From Arctopsyche grandis (Eukaryota > Arthropoda > Insecta > Trichoptera > Hydropsychidae), in contig NC_135362.1 in assembly GCF_051622035.1 (NCBI RefSeq), positions 15,289,501-15,353,500 on the forward strand: a stretch of 64,000 nt of DNA. The letters run 5' to 3'. The notes below the pieces were generated by a model. That model was not told the origin of the DNA and ran no database searches. It saw only the letters and a program-made list of their open reading frames with translations. The position numbers were made by a program, and so were the translations under genes. Below are positions 2,126-64,000 of this stretch, one piece after another. How positions within the stretch are numbered: the first letter of the stretch is position 1; every line of letters begins with the position of its first letter.

Positions 2126-3200
2126 CGTTTTATATTATTTTTGTATGATCATATTGATTTCGGTATATGTAACTTTATAATATTAAAATTTTAACCAAAG
2201 AAGAATTTGCATTTACAGTGCATTAGAAAATACATATGTATGTATTATATATTCATATTTGTATTTACTGTTTACATAGAATGTTAATTATACCATAGTG
2301 TTCTTATAACGGCTTCCAATTGAAACCAGAATGTGTTTCAAAATTTTAAATTGAAATTGAAATTGAGCATGTCTTCCATTTACAATTGTATTGTATTTTA
2401 TATGAATGTGTATTTTTGTAAAAATTATCAAGCTATGAAAATCCAAGTTCAAATGTCTTCCATTTATCGTATTAAAATACATATGTACCTTTACAATCTT
2501 ATAACAATAATTATGCTATTAGAAAATAATAGTGCAATAAATATGTACCAAAAGTTTTAAAATTAAAATATATTGTCTACAATATGATAGTATTGTTTTA
2601 TTTAATACTAGTTGTTTTACCAGGCTTCGCTCAGTGTTTGTAATATAAACAGCTTAAACATGGCGTATCTAATAGTAAATATTAAATGGTAAATTTATTT
2701 GAATCGAAAAAAATATAATTTTCAACCAATTGAATTGTCGACATAGTAACATTGTTTAAAGATACTTACATATATACATACATACTTACATACAAAGTCT
2801 GTTTCGAAAATATATATTAGATATATATGTATATGTATATATACTGTTTAATTTAAAACATACACACCAAATGTGCTCACAAATAAATAAAAATAAAAAT
2901 AAAAGAATAAAATTTTTGTAACGAACACATTAAGAATGAATGAATTTGGGAAAAGTTCATAATGCTGTCAGTGACAATATAATGGTGATCACAAATTAAA
3001 ACAAGTTTAAAAGGAAGAAACACTATTGATAGCAAACTATTAAATATATACATATGTATGCACTTATGTACATTTGTATGTATATAATATTTATATGTAC
3101 ATATACATGTTAATAAGGAAAAGGGGCAATTAAAAAAAATATAAAAACTACAGATTTTGCATTACCTTCATAGATGCCTATGATAATTTTATGAAGGCAT
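2126..3200. other. Convergent intergenic region, AT-rich
   Basis: Lies between the 3' ends of the transaminase and TCTE1-like genes. Apart from the Helitron-like copy at 2608-2821 it contains only A/T-rich DNA and CATA/TATG microsatellites (about 2760-2840 and 3045-3110). TTTATT at 3201-3206 can serve as the polyadenylation signal of the minus-strand gene. Confidence 0.6.
2608..2821 (-). mobile_element. Short Helitron-like element, complete copy
   Basis: On the minus strand this 214-bp copy runs from TCTAATATAT to CTAG and sits between a host A and a host T, the insertion site typical of Helitrons. It shares its 3' end (TACC..GGTA-like stem, then CTAG), the block around TTTATATTACA, and the 5' GACTTTGTATG block with copies at 12039, 63594 and 63829. 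There is no coding capacity. It is probably a non-autonomous member. Confidence 0.65.
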
Positions 3201-3257
3201 TTTATTTTATTCAAAATTTTATGCAAAAGTTATACGAAATTACTATGTTGAAAATTT

Positions 3258-5092
3258 TTAAACGAATTCATCTGAATAAAGACCCGGTATATGGTCTGGA
3301 TTGTGAGGGTTGTATTCCCAAACTAAATATTCTGGTTCGTCCAAATTGAAGGTTTCTGATAAAGAATTGGTTTCAGATTTGCTGCGAGAACTATTTCTCA
3401 CTAGGATTTTTGTAATTTCAGCAGAAACAACATCAGAAATCCCTGAAAATGATTTGACTAATAAATCTTAACTAAAAGAAATTTATTATTTGTCGTAACA
3501 TCAAAGTACATATACACCTGAAAATTGCATATCAATTTTTACAAGATTTTTATTTGCTTTTATAGCTGTCAGCAAAGTTGTTTCTGCTATTGAAAAATCG
3601 TTGGAGCTTATATTTATGCTTCGAAGACTTGAATTATATTCCAAACATTCTGAAAACTATAATTAAATGACAAAATATTTCAGTTTTCGTTTACATTCCA
3701 ATTAATTAGTTATACTGATTATTATTTACAACGGCAGCAGATGAGTCTATAAATCCACAACAAGAGACGTTAAGTTCTTTTGGCTTTTCTTTACATCTCA
3801 CCAAAGCTGAAGCCAAATAGCATGCTCCTTTATATGACAGCATGTTCATACTAATATCTGAAAATTTTATTAGGTAGTTTGATTTAGATGGCACAACGAA
3901 GCAAGAAGGAAAATATTATGCTTTTTGGTAGATACGCACCTAAAACTTTTAAAGGAGCTGAAAACTTTTCAGATAGACAAAAGCATAATGCTTGAATTCC
4001 TCTGTCATTGATTTGATCATCACTCAACCTCAACACTTTCAAATTTGTATGTTGTCGAAGAATATTTTCAAATTGCAAAATTATTTCTTCGGTTAAATTA
4101 CAATGAGATATATTTAATTCTTCAACACTATTTTTATGCAAAACAAATTGCTTCAGATTTTTAAATTGTAATAAATTTAATTCACAATTAATAATAGAAA
4201 ATTTAGATAAATTTGATGATGTATCCAATCCAGACAACAACAATTCCCAATCTAATAAATTTAATGCAAATTCCTGATTTCCATGTAAACGGATATCTTT
4301 TAAATTTACTAATTCTTTCAATATTCCGTTTAGTGCGAGATGATCGGTTTCTTTTTCTTCTTTCTCAGCTTGAAAATACATCAACTCAATTTCACTTATA
4401 AATGGATTCATCTAAAATAATTAATTTAAATTAAACATATACTACATAACATGTTAAAAAAAAATAAAGCGGGATCATCTAGTTTAGTCGAGTACTAGTT
4501 TTGCAAGTTCAATGACTGATTTTTCATCACCAGGAATAGCCTCTTGTATATTTTGTTGAAGGAATTTTCGTAAATACAATTCTTTCCAAAAATTTGGACA
4601 TCTATTGGAATTGAATACTCTCTCGGGCCATTTTTCAATGCAACAACGTCTCCAATAGATTTCATCCTGAAAATATATATGTACATGAAATCCGTGCATA
4701 TACATAAACTTGTCGTTACGAAATTAAACCAATTAACGTATACGATGTAGATAAAATCGAAAGCAAACTAGTTACAAATTCGCAAAGATTGCGTCAATAT
4801 TTACTTCAATAACATTTATCGTATACTTCAAGTGCAAATCCGTCGGCAATAATTCCACTAAGAATTCGTAATCTTGTTTAGGCAACTTCGACACTCTCAT
4901 GAAAGTATTAAATTTGTCAAAAATCTTGGAAATTGTGTATATACACATAGTACTTAATTTTGGCACTTGAACTGAGTCAACTTCATAAGTTTTCCGGACT
5001 AATTTCCTCAATTCCTCAGTTCGAGACGTGAAAACATCTTCAATTGGTTTTCCACTTTCTATTACAATCGTTGATTTAACATAAGACGACAT
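3258..5092 (-). CDS. TCTE1: TCTE1/DRC5-like leucine-rich-repeat axonemal protein
   Basis: Complete gene with six exons, in minus order 5092-4805, 4666-4496, 4411-3940, 3857-3730, 3656-3518, 3442-3258. All GT-AG joins keep the frame, giving 460 residues (human TCTE1 is about 500). The N-terminal helical part carries the family signature at about residues 97-145: I/NYWxRCC, WP, a W/F-K-E-L-Y motif, then IPG before the repeats. Leucine-rich repeats follow (VEELNISHCNLTEE, LKVLRLSDDQINDRGIQAL, KELNVSCCGFIDS, LRSINISSNDFS). A short acidic tail ends SDEFV. Known role of the family: subunit DRC5 of the nexin-dynein regulatory complex linking outer doublets in motile cilia and flagella, so expression in sperm is likely in an insect. 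The start at 5092 is the first in-frame ATG. Repeats are weakly conserved in length, but no stop interrupts them. Confidence 0.88.
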
Positions 5093-5254
5093 ATTTTATT
5101 ACAAATTAAACAATGATTCACATATTGTTTATATCTATGTTTATTTATATAAAGTATAAAAACAATCGAATGTTTTTAAAAATATTTTGCATGATTTGAA
5201 TTAACCCCTCAAAATTTATAACGAAAATTTAAATATGCATATTTAGGGTTTGTT

Positions 5255-5511
5255 GCAAACGATCGAAAAGCGCAGATGCACCTTTCGATGTGCACAGATG
5301 CAATTATTGAGTTGGATCTTTCTGGCGAGTTTTTAATAATTTAATACGGAAAAATTCGGAACTAAAGTATCAGAAGCATAGAACGTATACAGGGTAGGTA
5401 TGTCGGGACTTCGGGTAGATTTCGCTTCGTAAGTGCGAGCAGTGCGCACGCATAAGGTACACGTGTCGTTGATCTGTGGTTCAGTCTGTCTGGCGCTTTT
5501 CGATCGTTTGC
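5255..5511. repeat. Element bounded by 19-bp perfect inverted repeats
   Basis: GCAAACGATCGAAAAGCGC at 5255-5273 is repeated as its exact reverse complement at 5493-5511, giving a 257-bp unit with no coding content. It could be a small MITE or the remains of one. I see no convincing target duplication next to it, so the class is open. Confidence 0.45.
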
Positions 5512-5549
5512 ACCGCATCGGCATATTTACTAAGCATATTGTATATAAC

Positions 5550-6968
5550 CAGTGGCGGCTCGTGAATAAGATATCTGGGGGTGCTGCGGTTGATTAAAAA
5601 TAAAAAAAATGTTTATTTGGATTATATTTTACTATTAACATCAATATTATCAAAATTAAAAATTATATGTATTTTATTTCATTATAAAATTGATTCTTCT
5701 GTCTTTTTTCTTTGAAAAAAGATCTATCACCTTTTCGTTAAATTTTTTACTGTCCATAATCATTTTTTTCAATTGACAGCATAGACAAAGCCGTCAATCT
5801 TTCCTGAACCATTGTGTTTCTTATACTCGTATATGTATGTCTTTATTCTATTTATTGATGAAAAACACCGTTCTGGCTCAGAGGTAAGCAGAATTTGAAT
5901 ATGTTTTGCTATTTCCACACGAACTTTGCATAAATTGATTCCAAAAATAAGTTTTTAAAATATTAATAAATCGTTAATACTATGCATTTCTTTCCTTGAG
6001 TAAAAAACTTATAATTCAGTTTGAAGTTTTTCTTTATTTAGCATTGGATATGATTCAACGGTTAGTAGTAGATCTTTCATTGACATTTTCTTTGAGTACT
6101 TTTCAAAATTTTCTTTATTAAATAATTTCACAGCTTTTAATTGATTAGAAAAAGTATATCTTTCTTTAATATCCTTAATAATAACATCGCACATATTTTT
6201 GGCTTCTATAATATGTGCGATAATATATGCATCACATATTTTTGGCTTCTATTTTGTTCTCGTATTTGTATAATGACATTAGTAAAACTTTATAAGTTTT
6301 CTTTAATTGAAAATGCATCGATATTACTAGATTGCATTTGGTTATAAATAATTTATACATGCGGCATTAACTTGTGAAAAAGTTCTGACTAAAATAAAAA
6401 ATTGTATTCACTAAATTGGTAGAATCTGTTATTGTTTTATCGGTATTTTCAGAAGAATATTTAAGTTCTTGAAAACATTGGCTCAGCTTCTCTTGATTTT
6501 TATACCATCTTAAATACTGTGACGTATAGAAGGAAGTGTAGAAAGATAGAAAGTGTAAGAGGTGTAGAAAGAAAGACAAAAGGTGCAGAAGAAATGACGA
6601 AAAGTGAGGAGCGTGTCGAGCGCGCGGCGCGCACACGAACGCAACAAGAAATGTGTAGTACGGACTGTTGGGAGTGCAGTACGGACCAAGCTTCTAGCTG
6701 CCCCCACGCCCCTCCTTCGCCCACTCGAGCAATTCCATCGAAAACCGTACTGCACAAAATCATAAACGATGCCTCACTTTCTGATATTAGTACCGCGATG
6801 TATGATCATTATTGGATGTATCGGTGTGCGGGCGAGCTTAATACACACTTAAATATTATTGATATTTTCATATATTAACATACATTTATGTATATAATAA
6901 TATTAAATTTTTCTCAATTTCCTTGGGGGTGCTGCAGTACCGCAGTGCGTATGGACGAGCCGCCACTG
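5550..6968 (-). mobile_element. hAT-superfamily DNA transposon, internally degraded
   Basis: Begins CAGTGGCGGCTCGT and ends with the exact complement ACGAGCCGCCACTG. It is flanked by 8-bp target duplications tatataac (5542-5549) and tagataac (6969-6976), matching at 7 of 8. Both subterminal regions also share GGGGGTGCTGC. CAGNG termini and 8-bp duplications define hAT. The 1419-bp length is too short for a full element. Its transposase relic is listed separately. A GC-rich, purine-rich stretch at about 6520-6780 is non-coding filler as far as I can tell. Confidence 0.85.
5600..6194 (-). pseudogene. hAT transposase C-terminal relic
   Basis: Minus-strand reading gives an open stretch at 6194-6009 with the ESYPMLNKEKLQTEL-type motif seen in ZMYM1/TTF-finger hAT transposases. 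After stops and frame changes come the dimerisation motif LTSEPERCFSSINRIKTY, then MVQERLTALSMLSIEK in another frame, then FNEKVIDLFSKKKDRR near the end. The order and spacing match the hATC domain. Several stops and at least two frameshifts make it non-functional. The catalytic N-terminal part is missing. Confidence 0.75.
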
Positions 6969-12038: not shown

Positions 12039-12259
12039 TCTACATAATATATAATTTCAAAAGAGACTTTGTATGTATGTAACTATGTAACTATCGTTGG
12101 TTTGTAGAATTCGTGACGTTAAATTTAATAAAAAAACAAATGAATATTCAAATAAATTTAAATAAAATAAAACTATTCAAATAAATTTAACAAAACGTTT
12201 ACGATTAGACTAGATATGTTTAAGCGGTTTATATTACATATACCGAGCGAAGCCACTAG
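12039..12259 (+). mobile_element. Short Helitron-like element, complete copy
   Basis: Runs from TCTACATAATATATAATTTC to CTAG, preceded by A and followed by T. It is about 90% alike to the copies at 63594 and 63829 over most of its 221 bp, including the block around GACGTTAAATTTAATAAAA. It lies at the 5' break of a Jockey fragment. No coding sequence. Confidence 0.65.
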
Positions 12260-36900: not shown

Positions 36901-38658
36901 TACTGATATTATTTATTTGTTTACATATTTGCCACAGTGACATTACAGAATACTTACTGTCACTCTGACCAGATATGTAAGCGTTATAGATAATACATTT
37001 TTGAAATCATATTCAAATAGTGGGTAGGATGGTTTTTGCCAATTTGATGGTGGAACCGTTTCAACAATTAAATCAGATAAATTCGCAAACTCTGATAGGA
37101 AACGATCGACTTGATCGACTTGGAGTCACAAATATCCAAGTCTGACCAGCAGCGTTTTAAGATTATACTCAGAATTAATTCTTTTCAATCGAGTTCAGCT
37201 CACGAGATCGAACCCGATGACCTTTTGGTGCTTAGTATCAACGCAACCACCCAGCCACGCTGCTGGCTAAATACGCAGGTTCGACAAGTGCACAGGCCCA
37301 AGGCGCAGGACGAAGGCGGGCCCGAAACGGAACTGACAAAAAAAATCCTTCTTTGCTTTTATGTCATTAAATACAAAAATTCCCTGTGGCTTTCTTTACC
37401 CCAGTAAATGATAATAATAATACATGCTTTTTATAAATAGATTTTTAGATTTGTAAAAATATGAGACGTTTTAAATTGTTGTCTACGGGCGCGTGTTCTC
37501 ATTTTATAATTGTTTAAAAATTTCTATGAAGTATAATATTGTTAAAGATATTAAATATGATGACGAAATGATGTATAATAGATATGTATTTGTTATATTA
37601 TTTTTCAACAAAAGTAAGGAGTCTTAAATTGAAACTGTGAGGTTTGATAGCTATAATATATTCAAATTTATATGCAATAAGTTGAATTGAGGAAAGACTG
37701 AAAAAACTCAATATTTCATACTCATATAAATTATAAATATTTCATACCACAAAATTTCTAAAGAAACTATGTATGTATGTATATCCCCTACGATATATTA
37801 CTAAACCGAACTTTTTAAATTATTGCCGCACGACTTACGTAGTCTCTTTAGCGAAAGTCACAAATATGACGATAAACCGTCATTTATAATGTTGCGCTTA
37901 ATAGCCGATTAAAGTTTGCAGTTATTATAGACGACTTCGGTCGCTGTGTTTAGAATTATTCGGCTATGATCGACCCAATTTCTGAAGGCAATTCCAGATT
38001 CGAAAATACTCACGCATCCATTTAACACCGTAGAATAAGTCGCCCTAATTCAACTCGGAACTAATAAAACGAACCACCTCGTAAACAATGTCCTCGCCTC
38101 CCCGATAAAAGTTTGCCGGAATTGAATCGTACGATAATAGAACGAGTTCGCTGGGTCGGGGGAGTTTCCCCAAAAGTAAAATAATCGAAATGAACGTCAT
38201 TTGTGTATGTCGTCTCGAAAGTTTCGCACCCGGCAGTGAAAGAGTTAATGCAGTGTATAAGTTTGGGCCGTAAAATCGTGGCAAAACTCGATGTGATCAC
38301 GCTCCCTCGGCTGAAATTTAAAATCGGTCGCGTGTTTTTCAAATTTGACAGAGCCAAAAGAGGCCGCATTAGTATAATAATGAGACCACTTTTTTGAATT
38401 TTTCGATTCGATAGTTTTACGCCAGTGGCGTGCCAGCTACACCGGATAAGTATATGAAGTTGGAAAACGCGGTTTTTCTTCACGTGTCTCGCGTAAGTTA
38501 TTGCGCTATATGCTAAATCGCTCCAATTTATTACACGTGAAACTTCAAAAAGCTTCGTGATTTTTTTCTTTGGTTCTTCCGGTTACGTTATAAAGTTTTC
38601 CCAATTATCTATAATACATACATATATACCTAAATAAATATGTATATGTATATATATG

Positions 38659-38703
<45 letters not shown>

Positions 38704-41700
38704 TTTTCTAATTATATATAATTAATTAATTAATTTAATTATCTGCAATGGGACTCGGATGTTATATATATTATATACTAGCTGTATTACCCGGCTTCGC
38801 TCAGTGTTTATAATATAAACCGCTTAAACATGACTAAGCTAATTTAATTAAAAAAAAAAAAAAAATTTAAAAATTTAAAAAAAAAATTTAAAAAAAAAAT
38901 AAAAAAAAAAATAAAAAATAAATAAAAAAAAAATCAAAAAAAAAATTTAAAAAAAGCCCTATTAGGGCTTGCGCCCCATGAGGCTGGGCCCCCCGGGCCC
39001 CCTTCGGGGCCCCACGGGGCTGCGCCCCTTGTGGCGCCCCCTTTTGAGCCCCATGGGGCTGCGCCCCATGATGCTGGGCCCCCCGGGCCCCCTTCGGGGC
39101 CCCACGGGGCTGCGCCCCTTATGGCGCCCCCTTTTGAGCCTCATGGGGCTGCGCCCCATGAGGCTGGGCCCCCCGGGCCCCCTTCGGGGCCCCACGGGGC
39201 TGCGCCCCTTGTGGCGCCCCCTTTTGAGCCCCATGGGGCTGCGCCCCATGAGGCTCGGCCCCCCGGGCCCCCTTCGGGGCCCCACGGGGCTGTGCCCCTG
39301 TTGGCGCCCCCTTTTGAGCCCCATGGGGCTGCGCCCCATGAGGCTGGGGCCCCACGGGGCTGTGCCCCTTGTGGCGCCCCCTTTTGAGCCCCATGGGGCT
39401 GCGCCCCATGATTAAATGCAAAAAAAAAAATAAAAAAATAAAATAAAATAATTACCTACTCGATACAACCACGAAGTGGCACTTTTCCAAACCGCTATAA
39501 AAAATCGTTTATATATAATTTATTTTTATAACTCAATAATTTCAACTGTTTTGTAATAAGAGATTGATATCATTCGCGTTTCCGAATGCGCACGCGCCAA
39601 AATATAATTTAAAAAAATTATAATAGTCGCCGGCTATTTTTGTCGACTGTTCTTTATAGCGGAATTATCTAGTTTGCGAAGAGATGGATGCGATTAAATT
39701 TAGCGGTGTACATTGTCAATAGCACTATCAATTTCTTGTAGCATTCGTCAAACTTGAAAAGGGTGCCCATTGTGAGCAAACATTTAATTATTATTTGATA
39801 ACATGCATGTTTGTAGTTGTTGTAAACATTATGGTATAAAAAACACATTGATAGTTATAACTAATATTGGATATGTGAATTAGTATTCGCCTTTCATTGT
39901 CATAATTATAGTAATTGACCTTACTTGCCGTTTTTATCATGATGGCACTGTCACAGTGGAGTCTTTTGATTTTGTGACCGTGTTGCCAGAATGTCTTGGC
40001 AACTTTTCGGCCGATATATGTCCATGTGGGTCATTGCTAATAGATCGTTTGCATGGATTTGATGAAAATTGATGAAATCCATGTGAAATTCAAGTCTACA
40101 CACATGTGTATGTTGCATGTAAGCCGAGCGTACGTTGTGATTTGCGTGGATATTATTCACATTGAAATATATGTGTGTTAATGGGTTTCGTGAAACAACC
40201 CTACCAACACGTTAACGACCAGGTGGAATCTTTTGTTGTGTCGAACAGTTCAAATTTATTGAATTGAGAGGCGCGAGGCTTTTACCAGCTCCTGAATAAG
40301 CCATTTTGTAGGTGTAGATATAACGCGCTATACTATCATAAGACATGTTTTCTAGCAGCGAAATTAGGTCGAGGAAATCGGATAATTTTATGGGGAAAAT
40401 TATTTTTTATAGTTTTCGATCGTATTATTACGATGTCGAAGTTTTGCATGTAATAGTTTTTTTTATGCACCCGTCATAAATCAACCGAGCAAAAATAGCA
40501 TCAATGTGAGCGTTTTTCTGTTTATTTATTGTTTAGCGGAAAGTTTAATTTTTCACTTCGTTTTCAGACAAGTCTATTATATTTATATTTTCACCATATT
40601 TCAGATTTATGATTTTCATAAAATTGATGGCATACTCGGTAGCGAAAATATTATACTTTATTATTTTAAAAAATACCTCTGTATGAGTTTCCAAATTACA
40701 TTTAAGCCTTTTGACGAATACACTAAACATCTATTAGAGCATTTTAATTATCTCCACTTATCACCTCTGTCATCTCATCAAGTTTTCATTCAACCGTAAC
40801 AAGAGAAACAGCTGCTTTTGTTATGTTTTCATTTTTTTTTTATTCAATTTTAATTTTTTTTTCCACCATTTTGCGAAACGCGTTCCGGCCAAAATAAACG
40901 GTGACTTGAACGCTCGGAAAAGCTTCGTAGAGCTTTTCTGAATTTTTCCAATCTACGCTAATAGCGCTTTTCGCGCGGTTGTAGGCTTATATTTAGCTTT
41001 ATTAATTATCGTTGGAACATCAATCCTCGACAGGTAAACACGCCCGTGCTTATTTCAAACCCAGAATCCATCAAAATCCATCTTAAAATTTGATTTATTT
41101 AATATGTGCTTTCGGCATTGATCGAACACTTGTATGCTAGTACGCAATTTTAAAATAGACGTGTGAAATTTATCAATTAAAATAAAGTATTGTTTACAAG
41201 ATGGGGTGATAATTTAGCACAAATTAGATTTTCGTAGAAAATTTATTTTTCTTAAGCTACTCGTATGCACGAGTGTTTAATTTGATTGACAGGTATCATT
41301 TGTTATATTTAAAAATAGTTTAGACATGTTTGTTGAACAGTAAATAACTTTTAATTATATTTATAACAATGGTTTTCCTGTTGAATAAAAGTGGATTATT
41401 TTTTATGTGTTGAACAAAGCATTAACTTTTCTTTACATTTTCTGAAAAAAAAAACAACTAAAACGGCACTCGAATAAAACGAAATGCTTTTAAAGAAAGC
41501 ACAATGTAATTATGCAACGATTTTTTTTTAGAATCTTTGCTATTCGTTTGAAATAGAATGTTTATAAATACAAAAAAATAAAGTCACTGATGCCCTTGCA
41601 TTGTCCTTCAACTAAATATTAACCGTTATTTTATATGATAATTTATAGTTGAATAAATCAATTTTATATCAGGATGGGATATATATGTATGTACATAGCT

Positions 41701-63593: not shown

Positions 63594-63828
63594 TCTTATA
63601 TATAATTTCGAAAGAGACTTTGTATGTAAGGTTTAAAGGTTTGGGTGGGAGCATCGAAAACAAATCAAAGTTTCTATGACAACGATATTGATATCGTTGA
63701 ATATTATTTTTTTTTTCGATTCAAATAAATTTAATAAAAAAACAAATGAATATTTACTATTAGATTGTTTTGCTATGTTTAAGCTGTTTATATTACAAAT
63801 ACCGAGTGAAGCCGGGTAAAACCACTAG
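63594..63828 (+). mobile_element. Short Helitron-like element, first of a head-to-tail pair
   Basis: 235 bp from TCTTATATATAATTTCG to CTAG at 63825-63828, preceded by a host A. Near the 3' end a TACC..GGTA stem is followed by a few bases and CTAG, the usual Helitron order. The next copy starts directly at 63829 with TC. Confidence 0.7.
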
Positions 63829-64000
63829 TCTAATATATAATTTCAAAAGAGACTTTGTATGTACATATGTATGTTTTGGTTCGTAGAATCCATGACGTTA
63901 AATTTAATAAAAAAACAAATGAATATTCAAATAAATTTAAATAAAATAAAACTATTCGAATAAATTTAATAAAACGTTTACTATTAGATTAGAAATGTTT
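63829..64000 (+). mobile_element. Short Helitron-like element, second of the pair, cut by window end
   Basis: Starts TCTAATATATAATTTC immediately after the CTAG of the first copy. It is closer in sequence to the 12039 copy than to its neighbour (same GACGTTAAATTTAATAAAA and ATGAATATTCAAATAAATT blocks). It continues past the window. Confidence 0.7.

Follow-up and report, generated by a model that had tools for sequence, protein, structure and literature searches.

A GC-rich hairpin array of Arctopsyche grandis is very likely the interior of a young, non-autonomous Helitron family

Results and discussion

A GC-rich tandem array and its surroundings

We analyzed a stretch of 64,000 nucleotides of Arctopsyche grandis (the window; GCF_051622035.1, NC_135362.1:15,289,501-15,353,500, forward strand; C8:15289501-15353500 in the contig labels used here) from an assembly of 475.7 Mb in 189 contigs. 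A tandem array of 90-bp units and one 70-bp unit, hereafter the A array, occupies 38958..39411 on the minus strand, as delimited by TRF, blastn, a hairpin list and folding. The motif GCGCCCCATG recurs at 38971, 39061, 39151, 39241, 39331 and 39401, giving four 90-bp steps and one 70-bp step, and TRF reports a period of 90 (4.4 copies, 95% matches) at 38965-39358 and a period of 70 at 39276-39411, so that both the coordinates and the spacing given in the initial annotation are borne out. The reversed composition described there was also recovered: the GC content is 76.5% within 38956-39410 and 32.5% in the rest of the window, and the next-richest 455-bp stretch reaches 54.5% (sampling step 25 bp). 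Its claim of self-complementarity stands as far as folding is concerned, which lies well beyond that of shuffled sequences both for RNA (z -9.8) and for DNA (minus strand, z -10.8; plus strand, z -8.4; 0/100 shuffles as good in each case), although the share of reverse-complement 6-mers in one unit is only mildly raised (0.21 vs a shuffle mean of 0.12 and a shuffle maximum of 0.29). Pfam matches among 10 chosen open reading frames of the window comprised a class-III aminotransferase, an LRR and a weak reverse transcriptase, none of them adjoining the array, and Rfam gave 8 weak matches over 37000-41000, 0 of which reached the gathering score of its own family.

Beside the array lies the previously noted A-rich tract (38841..38955, 80% A on the plus strand), which reads as T-rich on the minus strand and corresponds in the map of loci to a standard module between the arrays and the 3' terminus. 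The Helitron-like 3' end was likewise found to be real (38777-38800, minus strand): the terminus spans 38778..38860 on the minus strand, ends in CACTGAGCGAAGCCGGGTAATACAGCTAG and is followed by the target base T at 38777, as assigned from an 84-bp query and from the counts of T behind free 3' ends given below. On the other side of the array, eight bases at 39412..39419 (minus strand), together with a neighbouring CATGA, match the piece GCATTTAATCATG when read against the units of a second array type (B array, see below); this B-like fragment, apparently fused to the A array, may point to rearrangement inside the element. A search allowing up to 7 mismatches revealed no 5' end close to this copy, and the four hits within the window are those of short relatives. 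Based on blastn of two complete copies (L013, L030) against the window and the map of 39 loci, 38778..39411 (minus strand) appears to be the 3' part of a truncated, internally deleted Helitron-family copy, a degraded member lacking both the 5' end and the B array. The two complete copies show a difference of 0.44% from it over 454 bp.

The short relatives in the window were identified by blastn. A diverged one with an AT-rich interior and without GC arrays lies at 2608..2821 (minus strand) and ends in CAACTAGT, a degraded one lies at 12043..12254 (plus strand), and a further diverged one at 63594..63828 (plus strand) has the 3' end CTAG and, according to flank alignment, another element directly behind it in head-to-tail orientation. 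Only the start of this second tandem element (63829..64000, plus strand) is contained in the window. Since these relatives, 212-235 bp long, are devoid of arrays, the arrays look like a later gain.

Copies of the array across the genome

A search of the assembly with the array resulted in 950 first-look candidates and one with the 84-bp 3' end (38777-38860) in 1003, and the copy numbers are lower bounds, with 40 of 950 and 40 of 1003 scored. All 40 scored array candidates match, one of them being the window itself, while the other 39 show a rounded identity of 100% over query positions 3-455 with one identical score. They are located on C1-C12, contigs of 30.7-42.7 Mb that are not organelle DNA. 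All 40 scored 3'-end candidates are 100% identical, and all of them lie on C1.

We fetched 38 regions, chosen by similarity to the array alone and not to the ends, and found 41 copies of the window-type array inside. In 40/41 cases, the array is bracketed by a Helitron 5' end upstream and its 3' counterpart downstream, both inside the same fetched region; the 3' end of the 41st (L012) is present in the next stretch. Whether other copies of the array also lie beside a Helitron terminus, a check proposed in the initial annotation, can therefore be answered positively for both ends. The regions yielded 49 elements with paired ends, 47 of which were measured, leaving out L016 because of its inverted duplication and L044 because of a run of N. 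In L044, the run of N lies within the B array at about 3070-5570 (oriented) and represents an assembly gap or a withheld stretch; such copies may therefore be hard to assemble.

Ends and target site

The 5' end of the element is TCTAATCTATAATTTGGAAAGAGAC and the 3' end is GAGCGAAGCCGGGTAATACAGCTAG. Matching the end motifs with up to 2 mismatches, the 5' end starts with TC in 48/49 paired elements (TA in L016), and the 3' end is CTAG in 47/49 (CTTG in L036, CTAT in the first element of L049). Free 5' ends are preceded by A in 33/39 cases (T in 5, G in 1), a set including two diverged relatives, two internal repeats of L046 and one start inside the array of L012, and A remains at 30/34 once these are removed. 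A similar picture is given by the free 3' ends, which are followed by T in 37/38 cases and by C in 1, one diverged relative in L026 included. In addition, we observed 19 exact head-to-tail junctions, with CTAG directly followed by TCTAATC, in 15 loci. Flanking DNA changes at the Helitron ends and not at the array edges. In the 38 free 3' flanks, with the T counted as offset 0, A stands at offset 6 in 31/38 and T at offset 7 in 28/38, a bias that reflects a wider AT-rich target preference.

An empty site can be approximated for L024, which was inserted in an older short Helitron. The alignment of its joined flanks with L037 spans the junction without a gap there, while that with the window relative at 63594 has a one-base gap beside it; the empty site is only approximate, because the paralogs compared are diverged. 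Close to the 3' end, we found a 15-bp palindrome (GTTTAT-ATT-ATAAAC) 28 nt from the end and a two-pair GCGAAGC core. In canonical Helitrons, the palindrome usually lies 10-12 nt before the 3' end. The palindrome observed here is weak, and the folding of the 3' end does not surpass that of shuffled sequences.

Organization of the complete element

The element is non-autonomous, about 1.3-2.4 kb long, and usually contains two GC-rich arrays, namely the A array with its 90/70-bp units and the B array with GGGCGAAGCCC hairpins at a period near 72 bp. The 47 measured elements with both ends range from 1,309 to 2,379 bp and from 54 to 62% GC. On the minus strand of the array, the usual order of modules is 5' end, GTC-rich part, T-run, A array, B array, T-rich tract and 3' end, with the GTC-rich part near the 5' end containing TGACGTCA and CACGTG. 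The number of A-unit markers per element varies between 3 and 11 (0 in L025_3164), and that of GCGAAGCC octamers, the terminal one counted, between 11 and 36; these array numbers lean to close kin, because the regions were picked by likeness to the A array of the window. In the B array, the spacing of the octamers mostly alternates between 31 and 40-41 bp.

Hairpins of the A array on the Helitron strand have the form GGGGC-GCA-GCCCC or CCCC-GAA-GGGG. Listing all perfect GC-rich hairpins with a three-base loop (stem >=4) on this strand gave 1,228 GAA, 566 GCA, 237 GGG and 78 ACA loops besides others, and none with the loops TTC or TGC; the array units descend from few ancestors, and the counts are therefore not independent.

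Several copies depart from the usual module order. The second unit of L015 follows an A-B-A-B arrangement, that of L025 is almost without A array, and that of L012 is interrupted by a new 5' end. The new 5' end in L012 (oriented position 5860) abuts the A array inside a hairpin, with CCCCGAA directly followed by TCTAATC, which points either to premature termination or to an insertion outside the standard target. In L016, B array and T tract are duplicated in inverted orientation within one element, at about 2300-3400 (oriented), and the 5' end of L046 (oriented 1028-1165) shows three consecutive copies of the element's first 46 bp.

Age, tandem copies and candidate helper proteins

Across the 47 elements, the mean identity is 98.8% for the last 84 bp and 98.4% for the 5' region (46/47), age estimates that lean to close kin due to the choice of regions, and 96.2% for the first 40 bp, where a GTAT repeat is variable. 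The first units of L015 (C11) and L038 (C3) are identical over 2,325 bp. These identities mark the copies as young and the family as recently active.

Near-identical first units are found at further loci, namely of 2,271 bp in L012, L019 and L037 and of 2,325 bp in L015, L023 and L038, and the head-to-tail second units behind them differ in length at the different loci. As like first units are followed by unlike second units, simple repeated copying provides no explanation. An origin of the tandems by copying one unit repeatedly was also rejected by comparing the 5' regions of adjacent tandem units with those of random pairs, as adjacent units are no more alike (3.8 vs 2.9 substitutions and 2.2 vs 2.4 gaps; 9 pairs). 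L023 and L030 have a common first unit (99.4%) and last unit (99.7%), with one extra unit between them in L030 and different flanks. For the tandems, repeated copying of a single unit is a poorer fit than read-through of neighbouring copies and inter-unit recombination; read-through past the 3' end is documented for Helraiser in the consulted part of PMC4778049.

Regarding possible helper proteins, Helitron Rep proteins are encoded in the genome, where a search for PF14214 (Helitron_like_N) gave 16 matches among 18 candidates. At C3:20710636-20738225, Rep matches occur at a spacing of about 9,032 bp, and larger Rep-bearing units seem to be arranged in tandem on this contig. A further match on C13 was reported with an 836-aa open frame, which contains PHEHIFLWL, taken by us to be the HUH motif, and GSAGVGKS, presumably the Walker A motif, and stops shortly after the latter. 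The ends of the element were not seen at the Rep loci L051-L054 (about 1.5 kb each side of the match) and at L055, on the 5' side of the C13 copy; as there is no Rep locus with matching ends among these stretches, the Rep helper is inferred.

Origin of the array and alternative explanations

Altogether, we consider it very likely that the window array is an interior part of a young, multi-copy, non-autonomous canonical Helitron. Two options raised in the initial annotation, Helitron cargo and a structured minisatellite, hold jointly, with the minisatellite forming the interior of a Helitron family; the third, a transferred or organelle-type sequence, found no support in the location of the copies (C1-C12) or among the phage, plasmid and bacterial sequences searched. 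A dispersed GC-rich minisatellite that spreads alone, by gene conversion or extrachromosomal circles, and has Helitron ends beside it by chance would account for the variable number of A-unit markers and octamers. Yet nearly all arrays lie between both ends in regions chosen by array likeness alone, and the flanks change at these ends instead of the array edges, which leaves such a minisatellite highly improbable. A coding repeat, with 30 residues per unit of the protein, is even less credible: the 90-bp period is a multiple of 3, and the array is spanned by long open frames in the window and in L044, but two frames per strand are open simultaneously over 100-148 codons in the window array and the 70-bp unit breaks the frame. 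That several frames are open across the array is explained by the rarity of stops, which bear A/T, in this sequence.

Two further readings are each unlikely, namely that the element is a non-autonomous Helentron (HINE/DINE type) and that it carries DNA captured or transferred from a foreign source and recently amplified as cargo of the Helitron. Central tandem repeats, sometimes in two arrays, are described for HINEs in the part of PMC7492417 at hand, and our element shows a short palindrome at the 3' end and a stretch rich in GTC close to the 5' end. However, it has TC/CTAG ends and an A/T site, with A before most free 5' ends, and not a T/T or oligo-T site; HINEs have oligo-T insertion sites and subterminal inverted repeats according to the same excerpt (PMC7492417). 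For foreign DNA, one could invoke the composition, which is the reverse of the window, and the short relatives without arrays, according to which the arrays may be a later gain. Against this, phage and plasmid collections gave no match (E 1e-5, low-complexity filter on), and an exact 20-mer found in three bacterial contigs was accompanied by no array in the fetched 8 kb, three matches being, by estimate, about what a GC-rich 20-mer would give by chance in 257 Gb. A bacterial, phage or plasmid origin was consequently rejected. GC-rich palindromic blocks in AT-rich DNA are also known from yeast-type mitochondrial GC clusters, but here they are located on chromosome-sized contigs, inside a transposon with defined ends.

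Among known systems, the canonical Helitron preferred here shares with Helibat1/Helraiser the TC...CTAG ends, the A/T insertion and the head-to-tail junctions, and the 3' hairpin of Helraiser serves as terminator in the portions consulted of PMC4778049 and PMC5876387; it differs in being non-autonomous, in having GC-rich hairpin arrays inside and in a weak palindrome that lies 28 nt before the end, compared with 11 nt in Helraiser. With the HINE/DINE elements (Cg_HINE of the oyster), it has in common dispersed tandem arrays inside rolling-circle elements, sometimes two (PMC7492417, in part); these are, by that account, Helentrons with oligo-T sites and subterminal inverted repeats, in contrast to the A/T site and GC-rich hairpin arrays found here. 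Insect Hel-2 resembles it in TC/CTAG ends, A/T flanks, a 3' stem-loop (weak in our element) and internal tandem repeats, but its consensus measures 250 bp and bears short (CTGT)n or (GTTT)n repeats, and the accessible section of PMC4344730 describes no GC-rich arrays. Finally, FoHeli1 and FoHeli2 of Fusarium have terminal hairpins in which C-G closes a GAA loop (AGCC-GAA-GGCT), as in many of the hairpins in our arrays, although the extract of PMC5148889 presents them as Helitron2-like, with hairpins at the termini and not in arrays.

Tandem arrays inside rolling-circle elements are already known, as the consulted parts of PMC7492417 and PMC4344730 illustrate. For GC-rich hairpin arrays inside a canonical Helitron, we met no description in the open-licence PMC literature at title/abstract level. 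Within the literature searched, a canonical Helitron with an A/T target site that carries two different GC-rich hairpin arrays in an AT-rich background is apparently new. What looked like an isolated oddity becomes part of a dispersed, recently active mobile family that plants strongly folding elements of 54-62% GC into DNA of 32.5% GC (this window). The elements with their 11-36 GCGAAGCC octamers offer a natural series for asking whether hairpins control the stop of rolling-circle transposition and how arrays borne by transposable elements seed satellites.

Proposed mechanism and possible role of the hairpins

Regarding the mechanism, we suggest that a Rep/helicase acting in trans would nick at the TC and peel off one strand, which could then be circularised or read through into a neighbouring copy. 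In this single-stranded stage, the GC blocks would fold to hairpins, many with GAA or GCA loops. Such hairpins may favour slippage and recombination, leading to unit numbers that differ between copies, and might also influence the point at which the strand ends. A terminator hairpin and exact head-to-tail circles have been demonstrated experimentally for Helraiser, as reported in the available parts of PMC4778049 and PMC5876387.

In the simplest view, the arrays are carried along as passengers and lengthen or shorten in the course of replication. A more speculative reading, to which we attach a low probability, regards them as amplified terminator-like hairpins, dozens of them with GNA loops on the transferred strand, serving as auxiliary or decoy stop signals and thereby as an internal brake on rolling-circle transposition. 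If this were true, hairpins would shape how far strands run and produce mixed tandem arrays.

Several results speak against such a function, the comparisons with the 3' end and between the strands included. The B units have no significant likeness to the 3' end beyond GCGAAGCC (P 0.05-0.23), and an origin of the B array from 3'-end copies was rejected, as only the octamer is shared. On neither strand does a 72-nt B unit fold better than its shuffled versions, and no compensatory changes were seen by eye among the listed variants. We also compared the folding of the two strands in 5/47 elements with 20 shuffles each, where the strand difference of the A array lies about 1.5-2.4 sd above the shuffle mean and that of the B array does not rise above it. 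Strand-specific DNA folding was rejected, since the difference is mostly due to composition.

Limited support for a braking role comes from the following points. The GCGAAGC core, described as an extraordinarily stable DNA mini-hairpin, is common to the arrays, with their many repeats of such hairpins, and the 3' end, and one element in L012 may stop at an array hairpin. GAA loops are also present at FoHeli termini in the extract of PMC5148889. For the 3' hairpin of Helraiser, the consulted part of PMC4778049 reports that an exchange of the stem keeps about 90% of the activity, and that a change of the loop (together with a pair at the base) acts like deletion.
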